Part shown: in pieces, positions 33,964-58,676 of the stretch
Numbering within the stretch: position 1 is the stretch's first letter
Layout: each line of letters opens with the position of its first letter
Origin: Candidatus Polarisedimenticolaceae bacterium
Lineage (GTDB): Bacteria; Acidobacteriota; Polarisedimenticolia; Polarisedimenticolales; DASRJG01
DNA: 64,000 nucleotides
Direction of reading: 5' to 3'
Assembly: GCA_036376135.1 (NCBI GenBank)
Contig: DASVAW010000164.1
Location: forward strand, 1 to 64,000
Notes under the pieces: generated by a model
Seen by the model: only the letters and a program-made list of their open reading frames with translations
Databases searched by the model: none
What the model was told of the DNA's origin: nothing
Translations under genes and position numbers: made by a program

Positions 33964-34328
33964 ACGTGCGTTGGTCGGTTCGAGCGGTGGAACGGTTGAC
34001 GGAGATCGTCACGCACATCGCGATCGACCGGCCCGAGGCCGCGGCGAGGTGGGCGGAGCGGGTGCTCGAGATGACAGACGGGCTTGCGGATCAGCCGCTT
34101 CGCGGACGGCGCGTTCCACAATCGAAGCATCGCGCCGTGCGGGAACTGCTCCTCGGCGAGTACCGGATCTTCTATCGCGTGGCATCCGGTGAAGTCGAGA
34201 TCATCAACGTCCGGCACGGCCGCCGACGCCACGATCCGAACGAGCTCGCCGAGCCTCGCCCGACTACGCCGACGGCGTACGGGACCCGCGTGACGCCCCC
34301 GGCATCACCCACGCCGCCAGCGCCGTGA
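33960..34328 (+). CDS. ParE/RelE-type toxin
   Basis: The 122-residue product matches the RelE/ParE fold: VRWSVRAVERLTEIVTHIA, RAARWAERVLEMTD-like helix, LADQPLRGRRVPQ, VRELLLGEYRIFYRV and IINVRHGRRR. ParE members poison gyrase and RelE members cut mRNA; the sequence is closer to ParE. The last 25 residues (from about 98) are rich in T, P and A and are not part of the fold. This tail overlaps the end of the opposite-strand gene by 65 bases. Confidence 0.88.
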   Translation: MNVRWSVRAVERLTEIVTHIAIDRPEAAARWAERVLEMTDGLADQPLRGRRVPQSKHRAVRELLLGEYRIFYRVASGEVEIINVRHGRRRHDPNELAEPRPTTPTAYGTRVTPPASPTPPAP

Positions 34329-34605
34329 ACGCCGCGACCGAGCCGAGGATCACCCACATCCGGGTCGCGGGCTGGCCCGCCTGCTCGCGGAACGCCGCGA
34401 TCCGCTGGGCCGTCCTCAGCCACTCGAACGCGCCCGCGACGAGCATCGCGCGCAGGGTCCAAGTCGCCCAGGCTTTCCGGACGAACAGCAGGCCGAGCGC
34501 GAGCAGACACAAGACGACGAGCGGGAGCAGCCCGGCGCGGTAGAAGTGCGCGCCGAGCACGACGAGCGCGAGAAACGCCGGGATCGATCGGAAGACGAGC
34601 TTCAT
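34264..34605 (-). CDS. Small membrane protein of unknown function
   Basis: The 113-residue protein begins MKLVFRSIPAFLALVVLGAHF, with GGAGG 5 bases upstream of the ATG. It has three to four membrane helices (about 7-23, 28-46, 50-70 and 88-105). I recognise no family for certain. It lies after the Crp-type regulator on the same strand but is separated from it by the palindromic repeat. It converges with the toxin gene, and their 3' ends overlap. Confidence 0.65.
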   Translation of the reverse strand: MKLVFRSIPAFLALVVLGAHFYRAGLLPLVVLCLLALGLLFVRKAWATWTLRAMLVAGAFEWLRTAQRIAAFREQAGQPATRMWVILGSVAAFTALAAWVMPGASRGSRTPSA

Positions 34606-34617
34606 CGAGGCCTCCGG

Positions 34618-34673
34618 AATTGGGGACAGCAACCTATTTCCGGGGCCCCGGAAATAGGTTGCTGTCCCCATTT
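34618..34673. repeat. REP-like palindrome, 25-bp arms without loop
   Basis: TGGGGACAGCAACCTATTTC followed by CGGGG (34621-34645) is followed at once by its perfect reverse complement (34646-34670). The stop codon of the Crp-type regulator (TAA) lies in the right-hand flank as TAAATGGGG read on the minus strand. It matches the repeats at 53.6 and 58.6 kb base for base over the first 19 bases or so. Confidence 0.9.
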
Positions 34674-35319
34674 ACAGCCGGGCGCGGTCGAGGATCCGGA
34701 CTTGGCGGCCGTTCATCTCGATCGCCCCTTCATGGATCATCCGGCTGAACGTGCGCGACACGATCTCCCGGACGGTCCCCAGGCGCGCGGCGATCTCCTG
34801 GTTGTTCCAGTGGAGCTCGAAGGTGTCGTTCTCCTCGGCGAGTTCGAGGAGCAGCCCCGCGAGGCGCTCGCGCACCGCCTTCAGCGACAGCTCCTGCACG
34901 AGGGCGACCATCCGTCGCAGGCGCATCGCGAGCGAGCCGATCACCGCGCGGGCGATCGCGGGCTCGCTCTCGACGAGACGGTGGAAGGTCGAAGGGGGCA
35001 TGTTGAGGACGATCGCGTCCTCCATCGCCGCGCACGACGCGGGGTAGGGGAGCCCGTCGAGCAGCGGGAGCTCCGCCACGGTGCGGCCGGGCCCTTCCAT
35101 CGCGAGGATCTGCTCGCGCCCCCCCTCGCCGAGCTTGTAGATCTTGACCGTGCCTTTCCAGACGACCCACAACCCCTTCGAAGGCTCTCCCTCGACCCAG
35201 AGGTTCTCCCCCTTCAGGAAGGTCTTCTCGTGGAGGTGGGTGAGGATCGCCTCGAGCTTCGCGTCGGGCAGTCCCGCGAAGATCGCGACCGTGCGGAGGA
35301 CGTCGAGTTTTCCCGCCAT
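34672..35319 (-). CDS. Crp/Fnr-family transcription regulator of the respiratory operon
   Basis: The 215-residue protein has a cyclic-nucleotide-like sensor domain (about 10-125), a long dimer helix, and a winged helix (about 160-210). The recognition helix reads GTVREIVSRTFSRM; R, E and the later R match Crp R180, E181 and R185, which read the half-site GTGA. It has no Fnr-type cysteine cluster. It is the last gene of the nine-gene respiratory operon and very probably controls the divergent promoters at 46.9-47.1 kb, where two GTGA-N6-TCAC sites exist. Confidence 0.88.
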   Translation of the reverse strand: MAGKLDVLRTVAIFAGLPDAKLEAILTHLHEKTFLKGENLWVEGEPSKGLWVVWKGTVKIYKLGEGGREQILAMEGPGRTVAELPLLDGLPYPASCAAMEDAIVLNMPPSTFHRLVESEPAIARAVIGSLAMRLRRMVALVQELSLKAVRERLAGLLLELAEENDTFELHWNNQEIAARLGTVREIVSRTFSRMIHEGAIEMNGRQVRILDRARL

Positions 35320-35331
35320 GGGACGACGATG

Positions 35332-35946
35332 CTACCCCGTCGCCCCCGGGCACTCCATCGCGTCGTCGTCGGGGGGGACGACGGGAAGCGGGTCGGGGAC
35401 GTCCCCGACGCGGCGGACCAGCGCCGCCGCCGCGAGCTCCCACACGGCAGGCGCGCCGGAGGCCGACAACTTCCGGAGTATCGGTCCCGCGACGGGGCGC
35501 AGGTGCTCCCCCGCGAACCTGCCGCGCGCCTCCGCGGTGAGGTGCGCCTCCTCCTCGCGCCCGCACTGCGCCGCGTACCCCTCCTTGAGCCACAGGTACC
35601 CGACGAATCCCGCGAGCACGGCGACGTGGTCGTGCGGGTCCTCCGCGCGCGGTCGGAAGGCGAAGGCGTCGTAGAACGTCGCGAGATCGGACAGGACGCG
35701 ACCGGGATCCTCCCAACCGCGATAGGCGACCTCGCGCGGGGACGCCGCCCCGCCGGGTCCGAACCAGCGCAGGTACGTCCCTTCGTCGACCTCCCCCGCG
35801 TGCGACGCCGCCTCCCGGAGGTCGTCCGCGTCGAGGAGCGCGGCGACCTTCGCGACCTCCTCGGCCCAACCCGGGCGCGGGCGCTCGAAGAGAAGGCCCA
35901 GGAGCCGCCACGACGCCGACGCGCGAAGGAGCGCCTCGGACTTCAC
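35332..35946 (-). CDS. TorD/NarJ-like chaperone for the molybdoenzyme
   Basis: The 204-residue, mostly helical protein has the features of the TorD/DmsD/NarJ family: LLGLLFERPRPGWAEEV near the start, YLRWFGPGGAASPREVAYRG, and DHVAVLAGFVGYLW. These chaperones bind the twin-arginine signal and help insert the molybdenum cofactor. It starts at GTG overlapping the gamma-subunit stop by 4 bases. Its place right after the alpha-beta-gamma genes fits the role. The match is by pattern and context. Confidence 0.8.
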   Translation of the reverse strand: MKSEALLRASASWRLLGLLFERPRPGWAEEVAKVAALLDADDLREAASHAGEVDEGTYLRWFGPGGAASPREVAYRGWEDPGRVLSDLATFYDAFAFRPRAEDPHDHVAVLAGFVGYLWLKEGYAAQCGREEEAHLTAEARGRFAGEHLRPVAGPILRKLSASGAPAVWELAAAALVRRVGDVPDPLPVVPPDDDAMECPGATG

Positions 35947-36791
35947 GGCCGCGCCTCGAGCTTCATCGGCGTCCAGGCCGAGCGCATCTTCCGCGCGCCG
36001 ACCTCGCCCGCGTTCCCCTGCCAGATCGCGAACGCGACCTCCGTGCGCCCTCCGGGGGCGAGCCCGGCCGGAAGGGGGCGCGACACGACGACCGCCCATC
36101 CCGCCTCGAGCCGCGTGCCTTTTCCGTCGGACACGGTGCGAGGTGCGGGTTGCAGCGAGCCGGGCCCTTCGGCGACGAGGTCCTCGACCGGTTTCGTCCT
36201 GGGGCCGGCCATCGTGTTCCCCAGATTTCGCGCCGGGGCGTACCGGGACGCCATCTCGACCTGCTCGGGGGATCCCGCCTTCAGCGACTCGGCGTCGAAG
36301 GGGTAGTGGGGGGTCGCGGCGCCCGGGTAAAGCGCGTGGATGTCGTCGGCGCGCCCGTCCACCACGGCCTGCCACGTCGCCCGCCAATGCGTGATCTCGA
36401 CCGGCTTTCCGATCTCGCCCATCTGGGGCGCGGGGACGTCCGGTTCGGTTCGCGCCGGCAGCTGCACGGCGCAGGCGTCGGTGAACATCGCCGGTCCGGG
36501 AACGTCCTCCTTCGACGCGTCGTCCCACTCCAGGCGGAAGGCGACGCGCGTGCCGTCGGAGGCCGCGCGCACCCGCACCTCCGCGGTCGAGGGGGTCATC
36601 AGCCGGGGTTCGACCAGGTCCTGCAGGAGCAGGGGCGCACGATGGACGGGCAGGGCGTTCCACGCGGGGTCCGCGGGGTCGGCGGGGAGGGTCGCGGCCT
36701 GGGCGACGACCACCTCCGGGACGAACACCGGGGCGCGGCTGCACGAGCCCGCGAGGGCGAGGGCGACGGCGACGAGCACGTAGCGGCGCAT
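35943..36791 (-). CDS. Haem b-binding gamma subunit, EbdC/DdhC-like
   Basis: The 282-residue exported protein has a signal sequence with a possible lipobox (LALAGSC). The body matches the ethylbenzene-dehydrogenase haem-binding domain: WNALPVHRAPLLLQDLVEP, VRAASDGTRVAFRLEWDD, FTDACAVQLP and a C-terminal VAFAIWQGNAGEVGARKMRS. In EbdC and DdhC this domain binds one haem b through Met and Lys and passes electrons between the Fe-S subunit and cytochrome c in the periplasm. The presence of this subunit marks the enzyme as periplasmic. Confidence 0.87.
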   Translation of the reverse strand: MRRYVLVAVALALAGSCSRAPVFVPEVVVAQAATLPADPADPAWNALPVHRAPLLLQDLVEPRLMTPSTAEVRVRAASDGTRVAFRLEWDDASKEDVPGPAMFTDACAVQLPARTEPDVPAPQMGEIGKPVEITHWRATWQAVVDGRADDIHALYPGAATPHYPFDAESLKAGSPEQVEMASRYAPARNLGNTMAGPRTKPVEDLVAEGPGSLQPAPRTVSDGKGTRLEAGWAVVVSRPLPAGLAPGGRTEVAFAIWQGNAGEVGARKMRSAWTPMKLEARP

Positions 36792-36807: not shown

Positions 36808-37937
36808 TCAGGGGGTGTTCGTGCGGATGACGCCGAAGCGCGGGTCGTGGGCGGGACGAACCTGCACCGGCTCGGTGATCGGGACGCGCACGATCTCGGT
36901 GCCGTCCTCCTCGAGCCCGAGCATCACGTCCCCCTGGCGGCGGAATCGCGGGACGATCCGGTCCGTACACCCGAACAGGGCGAACAGGCCCGCGAGCGTC
37001 TTGTCGTCGACGGCGGAGCGGTACGTCTCGATCGCGTGATCGACGCCGGGGCCGAACATCTGGTCGAGATAGGCCCTCGGCGCGTGGATCGGGGGCACGT
37101 AGTAGACGTTGGGCTCGAGCCCGAACTGCGGGAACAGCGGGAGCGCCACCTTGCGCACGTGCACGAGGTAATCGATCGGGTTGTCCTCCCGCACCTTGTC
37201 GGGGGTGTCGATGAACCCGGCGAAGCGGATCTTCCCGATGCAGTTCACGAAGCACTGAGGCTGCAGCCCCTGCTCGATCTTCGGGAAACAGGCGATGCAC
37301 TTCTCGGAGGTCCCCGTCATCGGGTTGAAGAAGGTCTTCTTGTAGGGGCACGCCTTCACGCATTCCTGGTAGCCGCGACAACGCCCCTGGTCGAGGAGGA
37401 CGATCCCGTCCTCGGGGCGCTTGTAGATCGAGCCGCGCGGGCAGGAGGCCAGACACGCCGGGTAGGTGCAGTGGTTGCAGATCCGCGCGAGGTAGAAAAA
37501 CCAGCTCAGGTGCGGAACCTGGAGGAAGGCGCCGGCGTCGATCATCGGCCCCGCGCAGTCGTCCTCGCCGACGTTGGGGTGCGCGTAGTCGATCTCCTGG
37601 GGACGCCATCCCACGACGCGTTCTCCGGCCTGCGCCGCCTCGAACAGGGTCCGCCCCTCGTAGCGCCCGTTCGTCCAGTCCTGGCTTCCGAGCTTCTCGA
37701 GGACGTGCACGTCCCAGGCGAGGGGGTAGAAGCCGTACGGCTTCGTCTCGACGTTGTTCCAGAGCATGTACTCCTGGCCCTTCCCCGAGGTCCAGGTCGT
37801 CTTGCAGGCGAGCGTGCAGGTCTGGCACGCGATGCACTTGTTGACGTCGAAGATCGCGCCGAACTGTTTTTGCGGCCGCGACTCGGGGTACCAGTACGAC
37901 ATCTCGCGGCCGAGCTGCCAGTTGTGCACGCGTGCCA

Positions 37938-37938
<1 letters not shown>
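36808..37938 (-). CDS. NarH-like iron-sulfur (beta) subunit
   Basis: The 376-residue protein has four cysteine clusters: C35-x2-C-x2-C-x3-C45, C154[12 protein letters not shown]166, C187[10 protein letters not shown]197, and C214-IAC...C229...C233. The third cluster has tyrosine where a fourth cysteine could be (NarH has Trp), so it is probably a [3Fe-4S]; the others should be [4Fe-4S]. The pattern is that of NarH, EbdB and SerB. Its start overlaps the alpha stop in TGATG. It carries electrons from the Mo subunit to the haem b subunit. Confidence 0.93.
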
Positions 37939-41383
<3,445 letters not shown>

Positions 41384-41387
<4 letters not shown>

Positions 41388-43015
41388 CGCTTCACCTCCC
41401 AGCGGCGCACGAACGCGACCACGGACTCGATCTCCTCGTCCGACAGCTCGCGGCGGGTCGTGGATGCGCGGGAGAAGCCCTCCATCGAGGTTCCTCGGCG
41501 CCCGTTTCGGATCGTCTCGTAGAGGTACGTGTCGGTCGCGTTCTCCAGGAGCACGGGATTCCGGAGGGAGGGCCCCTCCTTCCCCTCGCCCTTCTCGCCG
41601 TGGCAGGACGCGCACGCGCCGGCGTAGAGCGTCGCCCCCGCGGCGGCGTCGCCGCGCACCCACCGCGCGGGCCTCGCGTCGGGCTCGAACGCCGTCCCGC
41701 CGAGCTCGCGCAGGTGCGCGACCAGCGCGTCGATCTCCTCGGGGCGCAGGCCCCCGGGACCCCACGCCGGCATGCGCCGGCCGGGCCGGCCGTGGGTGAC
41801 GGTCGCGCGCACGAACGCGTCGGACGCGACCCTCAGGAAGTCCGGATTCGCGATCGCCGGGAACGCGGGGGCTCCGGGGTAACGCATCCCCTGGCCGGAT
41901 CGACCGTGGCAGGCGGCGCAGAACGTCCCGTAGAGCGTCGCGCCGTCGGTGGCGAACTCGCGCTCTCCCATCCGCTCGGTCCGGACGCGGTCCATCGGCC
42001 ACAACGCCTCGGGGAGCTCCGCGCGTCGGAGCGAGAACAGGTAGTAGTCGAGTCGCTCGATCTCGGCGTCGGAGAGACCGAGCGCCGGCATCGCCGAACC
42101 CGGCACGACGGCGGCGGGAGCGCGGAAGTGCTCGGCGAAAAACGCCTCGAGGCTGCGCGTGCCGTCCCCGATCCTCCGGAAGTCGATCCGCCCGGGGTCC
42201 TTCTCGCCGACGCGGGTGAGGTCGGGGCCGTCGTCGCCGCCGACCCCGCCGACCTTGTGGCACCCGCGGCAGCCCAGGGTGTGGAACGTCGCCTTCGCCT
42301 CGACGAGGCCCGGCGCCCCGACCCGCGAGTCGAGATAAACCGCGATGGCGTCGAGATCCTCGGAGGCGATCGCCCCGAACCCCTCGAGCGTCGCGAGGTG
42401 TTTCGCGTGCCACGCGCGGTCGTACCCCCGCACCCCCACGCGCGACAGATCGCCGCCGGCGGGGGCCGCCGCGGCCAGGGGGCGAAGGGTCCCGCCGCGG
42501 CCGTCGACGGCGTGGCAGGCGAGGCAGTCGGCGCGCTCGAAGATCGCGCGCCCGCGCTCGAGGGAGGCGAGGTTCGGGACGCGGAGGTTGGTGTGGCACG
42601 TGCCGCAACCGGCGTAGGCGAACTTCCGCGGGATCATCGGGGTCGGCCAGAACTCGGCCGTTCCGTGCGCGTCCTCGAGGTCGGTCGCGCGCCCCTGGCC
42701 GGCGTGGCAGACGACGCACCCGAAGTCGTTCGGGTCGTGCACCACGTCGGGGTGTTTTCCGAAGACGCGATGGCCGGCGATCGGCGTCTCGCCGGGGGCC
42801 ATGCCGACGTGGCAGCTCACGCAGCGGTCCATGGCGGAGGTCTTCGGCGCGACGACCTGGCGGAGCAGCACGGGAGACCCGGCCGGGGCGAGGCTCGCGT
42901 AGGCGGCCTGCAGGCGCCGCCATTCGCGATCGACGTTCTCGTCCCACGCGGCGACGCCCAGGACGGCGAGCGTCGCGAGGCTCGAGACGAGGAGCAGCAC
43001 CTTGTTGCGCTTCAT
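41384..43015 (-). CDS. Exported cytochrome c with seven haem sites
   Basis: The 543-residue protein has an N-terminal hydrophobic anchor ([18 protein letters not shown]) and seven CxxCH motifs: CVSCH (65), CVVCH (100), CGTCH (137), CLACH, CRGCH, CAACH and CASCH. The C-terminal half looks like three single-haem cytochrome c domains in a row. It sits between cytochrome b and the molybdoenzyme genes, so it probably replaces cytochrome c1 or f in the bc complex and passes electrons to the gamma subunit. Its stop overlaps the alpha start (ATGA). Confidence 0.92.
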
Positions 43016-43016
43016 C

Positions 43017-44549
43017 TCAATGCCCCGGCCACTGGGAGTGCAGCCAGTAGAAGTCCCAATTCGGGCCGCGGAAATACGTGCCGACGATCGTGAGGACGAC
43101 GAAGCCGCACAGGAAACAGGTGAACAGGGCCAACGCTCCCGCCCGGACCGAGTCGAAGCGGCGGATGGCCCACAACGAGAAGGCCGCGTACGCGACCGTG
43201 AGAACCGTCCCGGGGTTGACCGCGGTGATCAGAAGCTGCGGCGCGTGGGTCCACCACTGGCGGATCCACCCGACGTTCACGACGAACACCTCGAGGAGGA
43301 GCACCGCGCCGAGGCCGAAGGCGATCGAGGTTCCGACCAGGCGCCGCCCTCCCGGCCCTCCGAACCACTCCCCGGTCCCCTCCGTCTCGCGGTCGAGGTA
43401 GGGGATCAGGCCGAGCCCGAGCAGGACGATCCCCGGGATGCCGATGCCGCCCATGAAGGCGGAGAACGAGACGAGCTCCTGGAGCCCGAGGAAATACCAC
43501 GGCGCCTTCGCGGGGTTCTCGGGGACGGCGGGGTTCGCGATCTCCTTGAGCGGCGCGTCGGAGACCAGGGCGAGCGCCACGCACAGGAACGTGGTGAGCA
43601 TGAACACCGCCGCCTCGCCGTAGAACAGGTGCGGCATCGACGGCACGGTGTTCTCGGGGCCGCGGCCGACCCACGGGGTCTTCCCCTTCACGATCGCCGC
43701 GAGGCTGTAGGTCTTCGCCGGGGCCTCGGTGAAGGCCGGGACGATCGGCGCTTCGGGTGCGCCCAGGCGCGCGTCGGCGTCGGCGGGGCGCACGAGCCCG
43801 CCGTCCTTCCGGATCCGCCAGAAGTGCACGGCGACGAGGGCCGCGAGGGCGAGGGGGAGGATCATCACGTGCAGGAGGTAGAAGCGGATCAGCGCCTCCT
43901 CGCCGACGTCCTCCGAGCCCAGCAGGATCAGCTTCTGGAGCCCGCCGGGGTCGAACCACCCCGTCATCCCGAGCGCGTCGGTCACCTCCCGCGGCGACTG
44001 CGCGATGTTCGCGCCGATCGTGATCGCCCAGTACGCGAGCTGGTCCCACGGGAGCAGGTAGCCGGTGAACGAGAGGCCGAGGGTCACCACGAGCAGCCCC
44101 ATCCCGACGACCCAGTTGTATTCGCGCGGGGCTCGGTAGGCCGAGGTGAAGAACACCCTCGCCATGTGCAGGATCACCACCGCGACCATGATCTGCGCCG
44201 CCCAGCGGTGGATGTTCCGGATGAACCGGCCGGTCGGGACGACGAAGTGGAGATCCTTGATCGAGGCGTAGGCGACGTCCGGGTAGGGCTTGTAATAGAA
44301 CATCAGCAACACGCCCGTCACGAGCGTGATGAGGAACGCCGCGAAGGCGGCGGTGCCCAGGCCCCACGTCGTCGCCCAGCGCAGCGACCAGCGGTGCGTG
44401 CGGACCGGATGGAGGTGCAGGAAGACGTTCCCGAAGACGAACGTCGACCGCGTGCGGTCGGTTGCGGGCCTGCCGCCGCGGAACATCGTCTCCACGAAGC
44501 GCCGCGGCGCCGCGCGCAGGTTCGCGACGAAGGCCCGGAGCGCGCTCAT
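43017..44549 (-). CDS. Cytochrome b of a bc-type complex (full length)
   Basis: The 510-residue membrane protein has the haem-binding histidines H-x13-H ([16 protein letters not shown]) in helix B and H-x14-H ([16 protein letters not shown]) in helix D; the 13/14 spacing is the b6 type. The quinol-site motif, normally PEWY, reads [12 protein letters not shown]-terminal b6-like and C-terminal subunit-IV-like halves are in one chain with about nine helices. It oxidises quinol with the Rieske protein encoded just upstream (ATGA overlap). An upstream in-frame extension overlaps the Rieske gene and was rejected. Confidence 0.93.
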
Positions 44550-45046
44550 GTGATCGTCACCTTCGTCCCCTGCGGGACGACCGACCCTTCGTCCACGACG
44601 TAGGTCCCGCCGGCGACCTCCCTCACCTCGAGCCAGGGGAGGGACTTGGGTGCGGGCCCGCGCACGACCGAGCCGTCCGGCGCGAAACGCGAGCCGTGGC
44701 ACGGGCAATGGAACCCGTCCTCGGCGGGCTTCACGATGCAGCCGAGGTGGGTGCAGACGGTCGAGATCGCGAAGATCCCGCCGGCATCGCGGTACAACGC
44801 GACCGAGCGCCCGGGGGGCACGAACGGCTGCCCCTCGGCGAGGTTCTCGGGGAGGGTCACGCGGAACTTCTTCGAGGGGCTCGGGAGCACGGCCGCCTTG
44901 GGGAGGCGCAACATGCCGGCGAGCGCGAACAGGACCGCGGTGCCCATCGCGCTCAGCGCGGCGAGGCCGAGGAAGTCGCGACGCGGCACGGGATCCGGGT
45001 CGAGCCTCGAGCGTTCGGCTTCGGCCGAGTGGGGCTTCGTCGTCAT
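44546..45046 (-). CDS. Rieske iron-sulfur protein
   Basis: The 166-residue protein has an N-terminal twin-arginine-like segment ([15 protein letters not shown]) that also forms its membrane anchor. The [2Fe-2S] site is CTHLGC and CPCHGS with two Cys and two His ligands, the usual Rieske pair for bc complexes. GGAGG precedes its ATG and the start overlaps the FAD-protein stop by 4 bases. It moves electrons from quinol at cytochrome b to the multihaem cytochrome c. Confidence 0.95.
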
Positions 45047-46935
45047 CGGCTCCTCCAGGTCGTCGTGAAGGTCGTGCGCTCCATCGAGATCGCGTCGACC
45101 GGGCATCGCATCGCGCAGAGCGCGCACCGGATGCAGCGGTCCTCGTCCTTGAGGATCGCGGAATCGTCGGGGGGGCCGAGCTCGGGGGCGACGTCCGCGA
45201 GCGCGACGAGCTTCAGGCACTCGGTCGGGCAGACGTCGGCGCATCCGCCGCACAACACGCATCGCGCGCCGTCGAAGACGGGGGTCACCCCGCAATCGAG
45301 GCAACGCGAGGCCTCGCGGCGGGCCAGAACCGCGTCGTAGCCGATCTCGACGAGCGCCTCGGGGCTGGCGAGGCGACGCTCGGGGGGGAGCAGGGGGATG
45401 TCCGTGCGCCGCAACGCCTCGTACCCGCGTTCCCGGCGCCAGCGCTCGATCGGCAGGTGCGCCTGCAGCGCCGTCGCCTCGATCGTGCGGCCGGTCACGT
45501 GGCGGTACACCGCGCGCGCGGTCTTCTTCCCGGAGGCCACCGCGTCGATGAGCAGGCGCGTCCCGTGCGCGAGATCGCCGGCCACGAAGATCCCCGGCGC
45601 GGTCGTTTCGTTGCTCGCGGGGTCCACCTTCGGCCAGCCCGGTCGCGCCTCCTCGAGGTCGGGGGCGCCTTCCTTCAGGAACGCGAGGTCGGGCATCTGC
45701 CCCGCGGCGAAGATCACCGTGTCGCCCTCGACGATCCGCGTGGAGGCGTCGTCGTAGGTCGGGGCGAACCGCCGGTTCTCGTCGTAGACGCGAAGGCAGC
45801 GGCGGAAGACCACCCCGGTGACCGATCCGTCGAGCCCCCGCTGGATCTCGAGCGGGCCCCAGCCGTTGAGTCGCTCGACCCCCTCCTCGTCCCCCTCGAG
45901 GATCTCGAGGGTGTCCGCGGGCATCTCCTCGAGCGTCTCGAGGGAGACCAGGCGCACGCGCCGCGTGCCGGCCAGGCGCGCCGCGGTCCGCGCCGCGTCC
46001 CACGCCTCCTGGCGCAGCACGGTCCGCGCGACGTCGTAGGCGACGTTGCCGCCGCCGATCACGACGACGTCGCCGCCGAGGTCGAGCGCCTCGCCGAGGG
46101 CGACGGCGCGGAGCAGATCGACCCCGCCGTAGACCCGCGGCCCCGCCTCGCCGGAAAGTCCGAGGGAGCGCGGGCGCTTGGCCCCCACGGCGACGACGAC
46201 GGCGGCGAACTCGCGGCGCAACGTGGCGAAGTCGACGTCGCGTCCGACGGCGGTCGAGCAGCGGATCTCGACCCCCAGCGCCTCGATCACCGCGATCTCC
46301 CGCCGGATCAGCTCGCGGGGAAGCCGGTAGGCGGGAACGCCCAGGACCAACATCCCCGCGGCGACCGGCTCCGACTCGAAGACGACGGGGCGGAGCCCCA
46401 TCAGCGCGAGGTCGTGGGCGCACGACAGCCCCGCGGGGCCGGCGCCGACGATGGCGACGCGTTCGCCGGACGCCGGGACGAACCTCCCGTCGAGTGACGC
46501 CCGCAGCAACCCGGCCATCTCCTCGATCCCGGCGCCGACCTCGGGAATCCAGTCGCGCAGCTTTCCGAGGACCTCCTCGGGCGGTTGCGCCTCCACGCCG
46601 TGTTGCTCGCAGGCGAACCGCTTGAGGGCGCGAATCGCCACCGGCCGGTCGTTTCCGACGAACGCCCCGTCGTCGTCGACCTTCGGGACCTTCCCGCGTC
46701 GGCAGGCGGTCTCGCAGGGCGCGCCGCAGATCCGCCCGCAGATCGAGGCGAACGGGTTCGGCCCGCGGGCGATGAGGTAGGCCTCCTCGAACCGTCCCTC
46801 CGCGATCGCCCGGACGTACCCGCGCGCGTCGGTGTGGACCGGGCAGGCCTCCTGGCAGGCGACGAGTCTTCGGTGATGGTCCTCGGCGGGGACCTCGACA
46901 CGGAGGACGCGCAGCGACGACGCCGGGACGCTCAT
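45043..46935 (-). CDS. FAD oxidoreductase with ferredoxin domains (GltD-like)
   Basis: The 630-residue protein has an N-terminal cysteine-rich helical domain ([26 protein letters not shown]) as in glutamate synthase small subunit, then FAD- and NAD(P)-binding folds ([16 protein letters not shown] near 160 and [15 protein letters not shown] near 275), and two C-terminal [4Fe-4S] motifs ([12 protein letters not shown] and [12 protein letters not shown]). It is the first gene of the respiratory operon. It may feed electrons from NAD(P)H or ferredoxin toward the quinone pool or the bc complex; that role is inferred. It has no signal peptide and should be in the cytoplasm. Confidence 0.88.
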
Positions 46936-46943
46936 GTTCCTTG

Positions 46944-46949
46944 ATTAGT
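46944..46949 (-). promoter_or_regulatory. Predicted -10 box of the respiratory operon
   Basis: Read on the minus strand this is ACTAAT (4 of 6 to TATAAT), 8 bases before the ATG at 46935. The start of transcription would be near 46937, about 40 bases from the centre of the Crp-type site at 46969-46984, the normal distance for a class II activator. The leader would be only a few bases. Confidence 0.45.
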
Positions 46950-46968
46950 CCCGTGGGCCTCTTGCGGC

Positions 46969-46984
46969 TGTGACCAATATCACA
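46969..46984. promoter_or_regulatory. Crp/Fnr-type site TGTGA-N6-TCACA
   Basis: TGTGACCAATATCACA is a perfect TGTGA-N6-TCACA palindrome. It lies in the divergent region between the FAD oxidoreductase and hemerythrin genes. The operon-encoded Crp/Fnr protein has the RE..SR helix expected to bind it. Confidence 0.7.
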
Positions 46985-47002
46985 CGCCGCGTCGCGAGCG
47001 GG

Positions 47003-47018
47003 CGTGACCCCGGTCACG
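47003..47018. promoter_or_regulatory. Second Crp/Fnr-type site CGTGA-N6-TCACG
   Basis: CGTGACCCCGGTCACG is a second GTGA-N6-TCAC palindrome with symmetric C/G flanks. Its centre is 34 bases from the first site and about 41 bases from the predicted start for the hemerythrin gene. Confidence 0.65.
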
Positions 47019-47039
47019 GACCGCGACCGTCCCTCGCCC

Positions 47040-47045
47040 GATGAT
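47040..47045 (+). promoter_or_regulatory. Predicted -10 box of the hemerythrin gene
   Basis: GATGAT (4 of 6 to TATAAT) gives an expected start near 47052, just before the GGAGGTGACCG ribosome site. The distance to the centre of the second Crp-type site is about 41.5 bases, again the class II position. Confidence 0.4.
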
Positions 47046-47063
47046 CCGCCGCGGAGGTGACCG

Positions 47064-47531
47064 ATGGACCCGATCGACGCGTTGGTCGTGGAACACGAGG
47101 CGGCATTGCGGGAGCTCGAGCGGCTGCGCGTCGCGGCGACGCGCCTCGACCAGCCGGGAGCCCTCGCGGACTTCGAGGGCGCGCTCCGGTTCCTGGAGAC
47201 CGAGATCCGGGCCCACAATCAGTGGGAGGAGGATCACCTGTTCCCCAAGCTCGAGCTCTACTTCGGTCCTCACGGGCCGTGCGTCGTCATGCGGGCGGAG
47301 CATCGGCAGCTCTGGGACCTCTACGCCCACGTGGGGCCGTTGCTCGACGCCGTGAAGGGGGGAACGGCGAGCGCCGAGGAGGGGGCCCAGCTCGCCCGTG
47401 TCGCGTCGTCGATCGTCGACCTCCTCGTGCAGCACATCGCGAAGGAGAACCAGATCCTCTTCCCGATGGCCAAGCAGATGCTCCGGCCCGACGATCTCGA
47501 GGCGATGCGCGCCGCGCGCCCCGAGGCCTGA
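47064..47531 (+). CDS. Hemerythrin (HHE domain) protein
   Basis: The 155-residue, all-helical protein has the di-iron ligands of the HHE family: VVEHEAAL (H11), [24 protein letters not shown] and [12 protein letters not shown]. Such proteins sense or carry O2 or NO, or repair iron centres under nitrosative stress. It has a strong ribosome site (GGAGGTGACCG) and shares the Crp-controlled divergent region with the respiratory operon. A role in guarding or sensing NO or O2 during anaerobic respiration fits the context. Confidence 0.9.
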
Positions 47532-47535
47532 CCCC

Positions 47536-48324
47536 GTGACCGCTCCCCCTCCGCTCCCGAGAGAACACGGCGCGTGGGTGATGCTCGCGCTGCCGCTGAT
47601 TCTCGGGCTGACGTTGGGAGGGGGAAGCCCCGCGGCGTGGGGGGTCCCCGCCGCGGCGATCCTCGCCTTCCTGGCGCACTACGCCCTCGTGCCGGTGCTC
47701 CAGCGCAAGCGGACGGGGAAACCGGGTCCGGCCGAGTGGACCCGCGCGCGGTGGAGCTGGGGGGCGATCTACCTCGGCGGCGCGGGGGTCGCCTTCGCAG
47801 CAACGTGGCTTCTTTCGCCGACGCGCGGGGCGCTGGGGACGCTGGCCGCGGTCAGCGGGGGGTGCGCGGCGGTTTATTTCGTCGCGGCGGCGTTCGGTTC
47901 GGGGCGGGCGATCGCGAGTGAGCTCGTGGGGATGGCGGGGATGGCGCTGGCGGCCCCCCTCGTCGCGGCGGCGGCGGGCGTCCTCGACCGCCGTGCGTGG
48001 ACGGCGGCGGCGATCGCCTTCGCCTATTTCCTGTCCTCGGTGGCCTTCGTCCGGGCATACGGCGCTTTCCGCGAGGACCGCGCGGCGGCGACGGTGCGCT
48101 GTCTGACGGCGCACGCGGGGGTGGCGGTCGGCGTCGTCGCGCTCGCGGTTGCCGGGCTCGTGGCGGCCCTCCCGCTTCTCGCCTTGGCTCCGGCGGCGAT
48201 CCGCACGTCGTGGGGGCTGGCACGCCCTCCCGCCAACCTCCGGGCGCTCGGCATGGGGGAGCTCGGGGTGGCGGTCGCCCTGGCGGCGTCGGCGATCGTC
48301 CTTCTGCGTGTCGGGGGGCTGTAA
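47536..48324 (+). CDS. YwiC-like membrane protein
   Basis: The 262-residue protein starts at GTG 4 bases after the hemerythrin stop. It has the family's opening PREHGAWVMLALPLILGL and then about eight membrane helices. In Bacillus subtilis ywiC lies in the fnr-narK-nar region, which supports a link to nitrate or nitrite respiration; its molecular function is unknown. It is expected to be co-transcribed with the hemerythrin gene. Confidence 0.85.
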   Translation: MTAPPPLPREHGAWVMLALPLILGLTLGGGSPAAWGVPAAAILAFLAHYALVPVLQRKRTGKPGPAEWTRARWSWGAIYLGGAGVAFAATWLLSPTRGALGTLAAVSGGCAAVYFVAAAFGSGRAIASELVGMAGMALAAPLVAAAAGVLDRRAWTAAAIAFAYFLSSVAFVRAYGAFREDRAAATVRCLTAHAGVAVGVVALAVAGLVAALPLLALAPAAIRTSWGLARPPANLRALGMGELGVAVALAASAIVLLRVGGL

Positions 48325-53632: not shown

Positions 53633-53706
53633 ATGGGGACGGCAACCTATTTCCCCAACCCCGCAACGGGCGCTTCGGGGTTGGGGAAGAAGGTCGCCGT
53701 CCCCAT
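53630..53706. repeat. REP-like palindrome between TonB receptor and phosphatase genes
   Basis: Arms 53633-53663 and 53676-53706 (31 bases) pair with three mismatches around a 12-base loop. Core: ATGGGGACGGCAACCT. The TAA stop of the TonB receptor is its first bases (TAAATGGGG), and the opposing phosphatase gene reads across the right arm and stops inside the left arm. Confidence 0.85.
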
Positions 53707-58572: not shown

Positions 58573-58676
58573 ATGGGGACAGCAACCTATTTCCGAATAG
58601 GGGACAGTCACCCTATTCGGAAATAGGTTGCTGTCCCCATTTAATGAGGGACTGTCCCTATTTTCAGAGCGCGACG
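58537..58676. repeat. 140-bp near-perfect palindrome with REP-like units
   Basis: Arms 58537-58602 and 58611-58676 (66 bases) are inverted copies with one mismatch (C or T in AAAACAGGG/AAAATAGGG) around the 8-base centre GACAGTCA. Each arm carries AGGGACAGTCCCT and TGGGGACAGCAACCTATTTC. The outer 12 bases (CGTCGCGCTCTG) lie in the coding ends of the oxygenase and the RapA-like gene. Confidence 0.9.

Follow-up and report, generated by a model that had tools for sequence, protein, structure and literature searches.

In Bacillus subtilis, the regulator Fnr carries a 4Fe-4S cluster, recognizes TGTGA-N6-TCACA at about -41.5 and controls nitrate reductase as well as its own gene; its regulon includes narGHJI and narK-fnr, with ywiC in the neighbourhood. 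The sites of the DNR and NnrR regulators are TTGAT- or TTGTC-like. These proteins are dedicated Crp/Fnr activators of nitrogen-oxide respiration without an Fe-S cluster (PMC1274295). In the HcpR family, the identity of residue 180 goes along with the third base of the binding site; HcpR1 has binding sites at both its own gene and nap, and the predicted extended regulons include nrfHA, a nar operon and hemerythrin-like genes (PMC1274295, PMC5701242).

In the 64-kb window, i.e. the whole stretch of DNA that was analysed, a 128-bp gap (46936-47063) separates two divergent groups of genes. The minus strand carries, in order of transcription, genes for a GltD-like FAD/NAD(P) oxidoreductase with 4Fe-4S domains (45043..46935, ATG at 46935), a Rieske iron-sulfur protein (44546..45046), an ExtP/b6-like cytochrome b (43017..44549), a multi-heme cytochrome c with CBB3/cytochrome c domains (41384..43015), an NxrA-like molybdopterin subunit with a Tat-like RRRFLK signal (37938..41387; full-length match to nitrite oxidoreductase subunit A 7b04_B, 1.6e-254), an NxrB/NarH-like iron-sulfur subunit (36808..37941), an NxrC-like heme b subunit of the ethylbenzene dehydrogenase gamma family (35943..36791), a NarJ/TorD-type chaperone (35332..35949) and, as the last operon gene, a Crp/Fnr regulator of 215 aa (34672..35319). 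Since these genes overlap or lie 1-16 bases apart, a single transcript is likely. Judged by sequence alone, the NxrA, NxrB and NxrC-like subunits of an NXR-type DMSO reductase II enzyme are all present, and the operon appears to encode a periplasmic NXR/Nar-type molybdoenzyme together with a Rieske/cytochrome b module. On the plus strand, a hemerythrin-domain protein gene (RIC/DnrN-like, 47064..47531), preceded by the Shine-Dalgarno sequence GGAGGTG, is followed after 4 bases by a gene for a YwiC-like membrane protein (47536..48324).

Directly 3' of crp, a long hairpin with GGGGACAGCAACCTATTTC arms (34618..34672), a REP-like repeat, likely marks the end of the operon. The small ORF at 34264-34671 has its start inside this repeat and was therefore not counted among the operon genes. 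Inverted repeats with ATGGGGACAGCAACCTATTTC arms and GC-richer variants were seen at 34618-34672, 53633-53706 and 58573-58640; they resemble REP-type palindromes and create false ORF starts (MGTATYF...).

The gap itself holds two Crp-type palindromes, TGTGACCAATATCACA at 46969..46984 (site 1) and CGTGACCCCGGTCACG at 47003..47018 (site 2), the putative operators of the NXR-type operon and of hemerythrin-ywiC, respectively. They are the GTGA-N6-TCAC pair that the original prediction had located here, and the strict form common to both is YGTGAYN4RTCACR. Between the centre of site 1 (46976.5) and the A of the operon ATG lie 41.5 bases; this ATG is the first possible start because an in-frame TAA occurs upstream at 46947-46945. 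Site 1 would be centred at -41.5 if transcription started at the ATG itself; class II spacing therefore needs a leader of 0-2 nt, and the operon mRNA, if under class II control, would be leaderless or nearly so. The hemerythrin ATG (47064) is 53 bases away from the centre of site 2 (47010.5), which would be at -41.5 for a predicted start at about 47052.

With a centre at about -41.5, the -10 hexamer should begin some 30 bases away from it, and this was taken as the mark of class II placement. On the hemerythrin side, the -10-like element GATGAT (47040..47045, plus strand, 4/6) is found exactly 30-35 bases from the site 2 centre. The -10-like element of the operon promoter, ACTAAT / TAATCA (46942..46949, minus strand, 28-35 bases from the site 1 centre), is a weak match: TAATCA occupies the exact -12..-7 slot with 2/6 bases, and ACTAAT, with 4/6, is two bases off; the position is backed by the orthologous promoters of relatives. 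Relative to predicted starts, the promoter set thus shows class II placement, exact at hemerythrin and weak at nxr. The class II placement proposed earlier for both divergent promoters is borne out by site spacing and -10 positions, and for the operon the near-leaderless mRNA implied by it has to be added to that proposal. No terminator was found by a scan of the gap.

The regulator encoded at the operon end contains PF00027 (cNMP-binding type; E 2.9e-20) and PF13545 (HTH_Crp_2; E 7.9e-17), both over cut-off, and its best curated-model scores, FtrB and CRP, remain below cut-off. Its recognition helix GTVREIVSR provides Arg180-Glu181-Arg185, in agreement with the R-E...R residues reading GTGA in the original prediction, and these residues are predicted to pair with the GTGA half-sites. 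With a single cysteine in 215 residues the protein is without FNR-type 4Fe-4S ligands, which excludes an FNR-type cluster, and in an alignment with GlxR (4byy) the arginine that contacts the cAMP phosphate (E. coli Arg82) is missing (GLPYPASC for PGPRTSSA). The signal would accordingly be something other than cAMP or an FNR-type iron-sulfur cluster, and by analogy with HcpR and DNR it is most likely a nitrogen oxide or redox state sensed through heme. Autoregulation, also part of the original prediction, would follow from the place of crp as the last gene of this closely spaced operon. Directly ahead of crp itself there is no site, and GTGA sites by genes of Arg180-clade Crps in other genomes are few, with no consistent autoregulatory site.

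The recognition helix by itself does not single out this protein as the reader, since the paralogue C90 has Arg-Glu...Arg too (...SRENVSR). A scan of genome contigs with the window Crp as single protein gave no relative; in the remaining two Crp paralogues of the genome, residue 180 is H or P. That the class II operators are real but read mainly by C90 is nevertheless unlikely. Proximity and co-transcription favour the local Crp, and so does G008, a genome of the same order that contains the nearest orthologue of this regulator found (61%; the only close one in the order) as well as class II GTGA sites, without a C90 orthologue: C90 itself matches a single G008 protein, the orthologue of the local Crp, at 26%. 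The operon's own Crp is, in our view, very probably the site reader. No match to an NXR operon was found in G008. Two of its three strict sites lie ahead of redox genes, and at both the distance from centre to -10 is exactly 30 bases: a COX1/DUF1858 'hybrid cluster protein-associated' gene has TGTGACCTGGATCACG and CATAAT upstream, a NapH-like ferredoxin gene CGTGACCTGGGTCACG and TCCAAT.

Within the window genome the same type of site recurs at nrfHA, where the strict site CGTGACTCCGGTCACG is 42.5 bases before the nrfH ATG and TAGAAT 29 bases from its centre, so that almost no leader is predicted, as at the NXR-type operon. NrfH scored over cut-off and NrfA, with E 2.7e-96, under the curated cut-off. 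Other genes beyond nrfHA probably carry the site as well. Strict sites precede a ferredoxin gene (L130, with a weak -10), a radical-SAM/MOSC pair and a BNR protein gene, all with weaker promoters, and L128, L129 and L130 are possible but weak further targets. At L129:270-285 (G000:C74) the palindrome stands before the radical-SAM gene, which is followed by a MOSC-type (6-hydroxyaminopurine reductase-like) gene, a possible target. Three of the nine strict sites in the genome (L126, L127, L131) appear inside genes and were set aside.

When 11 GTGA-type promoters were examined, 8 had at least 4/6 -10 bases at positions 29-32, and the other four-position bins of the same promoters contained 0-2. 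This bears on the direction of control. Crp-family members can both activate and repress. Repression is also possible from a site that covers the -35 region, and a strict scan detected no sigma-70 consensus promoter in the gap; these points favour a reading in which the bound protein blocks RNA polymerase sterically at one or both promoters and activation comes from elsewhere. A -10 kept 29-32 bases from the centre, with the site over the -35 region, is however the pattern of activator-dependent class II promoters, and we regard repression as distinctly improbable. Class II activation at the gap promoters, as predicted from these spacings, is highly likely.

NxrA operons (NxrA identity up to 77%) are widespread in many uncultured Acidobacteriota and in other phyla. 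The conservation of the GTGA pair that the original prediction called for was absent in all 66 distinct orthologous regions (300 bp upstream of the first gene). The class II slot, in turn, is conserved in a subset, filled by ATGA-N6-TCAT: ATGA-YN4R-TCAT occurs in 17/66 upstream regions vs 0.43 expected (P about 1e-21), and in these 17 operons the TATAAT match peaks 30 bases from the centre (mean 3.6/6, at least 4 in 10/17). In the remaining 49 operons, the 300 bp ahead of the first gene lack an ATGA-type palindrome. Nearly all Crps near ATGA-site operons have GLTLETTIR-like helices with I/V/L/T in place of Arg180; the one exception is L085, where the Crp is a more remote member of the family (GITQETLSR) and the site close to it a mixed GGTGA/TCATA. 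In the tree, the Crps of ATGA operons form a clade apart from the pair of window Crp and G008 Crp (support 92/78 and 94/99). Several crp genes near ATGA-type NXR operons (L089, L178, L186, L189) have ATGA sites in their own flanks, which suggests autoregulation there.

The NXR operons of G239 and G278 have ywiC and a RIC or hemerythrin gene, the latter named from translations, as neighbours, with AGTGACTTAAGTCAT sites before hemerythrin-ywiC or ywiC-crp, and the G278 cluster adds a gene whose translation is qNOR-like and an Arg180 Crp. The G260 operon starts with an Rrf2-like gene, preceded by the GTGA site CGTGACCGCCGTCACA, and the genome encodes an Arg180 Crp. Rrf2-like genes, read from sequence, head the NXR-type operon in some relatives (L083:2104-2620, L102:2677-3084). 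G260 contains 51 strict YGTGAYN4RTCACR sites vs 2-16 in the other genomes compared, suggestive of a global Crp regulon.

According to Rodionov and colleagues (PMC1274295), Arg180 pairs with a G as third base of the operator. Here residue 180 and half-site co-vary, Arg with GTGA in the window vs I/V/L/T with ATGA in most site-bearing relatives, and the orthologous promoters form a natural set on this pairing (Arg-G vs aliphatic-A) that extends the published code. A tentative reading, which may well prove wrong, is that the class II slot of the NXR-type promoter stayed fixed as Crp/Fnr clades were exchanged and the operator was recoded to residue 180. If true, ATGA was recoded to GTGA or the reverse, by in-place mutation or by transfer of the whole promoter-operon.

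Could the palindromes have arisen by chance in a GC-rich gap? The GC content is high, GTGA-N6-TCAC matches are numerous genome-wide (93 in 4.38 Mb), and most order mates have a background of 3-6 strict sites per genome, which makes strict-site counts weak as regulon proof. Against this stand 4 matches in the window vs 0.55 expected from shuffles, 2 of the genome's 9 strict sites within 128 bp, a Poisson P of 3.7e-6 for two sites in the gap at the genomic rate, and 0/40,000 dinucleotide shuffles of the gap with two sites. Together with the right spacing at both sites, the third site at nrfHA and the slot use conserved in relatives, this leaves chance very little room, and both sites are almost certainly real. 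Equally remote is the idea that they are operators of Rex, the NADH/NAD redox repressor that controls anaerobic genes in S. aureus (PMC2883068): its consensus TTGTGAA-N4-TTCACAA also contains GTGA-N6-TCAC, but in both sites GTGA is followed by C or T instead of A, and no Rex N-terminal domain was found in the genome as assembled at E 1e-3; the same search found it in control genomes.

From the sites, their spacing, their recurrence at nrfHA and in G008 and the co-variation of residue 180 with the half-site, we infer binding of, and activation by, the Crp. The likely circuit consists of two class II operators, one per divergent promoter, read by the Crp/Fnr protein of the operon end, with nrfHA co-activated. 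In its active state the Crp dimer would bind each palindrome at about -41.5 and touch RNA polymerase over the -35 region. It would thereby activate hemerythrin-ywiC, nrfHA elsewhere in the genome, and the nitrate-reductase-type operon that contains the regulator gene itself, the operon transcript having no leader or almost none. Nitrate reduction, nitrite ammonification and a di-iron protein of the NO/Fe-S-repair type would thus be coupled. The proposed coupling of the respiratory operon with hemerythrin-ywiC is upheld, and the switch, described as local in the original prediction, is wider, with the same site at nrfHA. The mechanism itself is ordinary, a well-supported kind of control for nitrogen-oxide respiration, here in an uncultured and probably acidobacterial bacterium. 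What it contributes is a regulatory link for NXR-type operons. From sequence it is uncertain whether such operons serve nitrite oxidation or nitrate reduction. The regulatory site common to the NXR-type operon and nrfHA (nitrite to ammonia) suggests the reductive direction and points to nitrate being reduced to ammonium.

Among known systems, the nitrite oxidoreductase of the anammox / Nitrospira type (7b04) shares with the window the full-length NxrA match and NxrB/NxrC-like subunits, whereas the window operon adds the GltD-like protein, the Rieske/cytochrome b pair and cytochrome c. B. subtilis Fnr has in common with the window the site type, the -41.5 position and control of nitrate reductase and of itself, but the window Crp has one cysteine. 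DNR and NnrR are, like the window Crp appears to be, dedicated activators of nitrogen-oxide respiration, but their sites differ from the GTGA type with Arg180 seen here. In the HcpR1 regulon of Desulfovibrio and delta-proteobacteria (PMC1274295, PMC5701242), as in the window, a Crp/Fnr protein without the FNR cysteines combines a TGTGA-N6-TCACA site with Arg180, and the window genome likewise has TGTGA-N6-TCACA-type operators with a predicted nitrogen-oxide regulon. No gene of the hcp (Prismane) family was found in this genome, nor the control of hcp / frdX that characterizes HcpR; because hcp is absent, we do not file the window Crp as HcpR. Its controlled enzyme is also NXR-type and not NarGHI or Nap. 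By its sites and predicted targets, the window circuit appears to work like an HcpR/DNR regulon.
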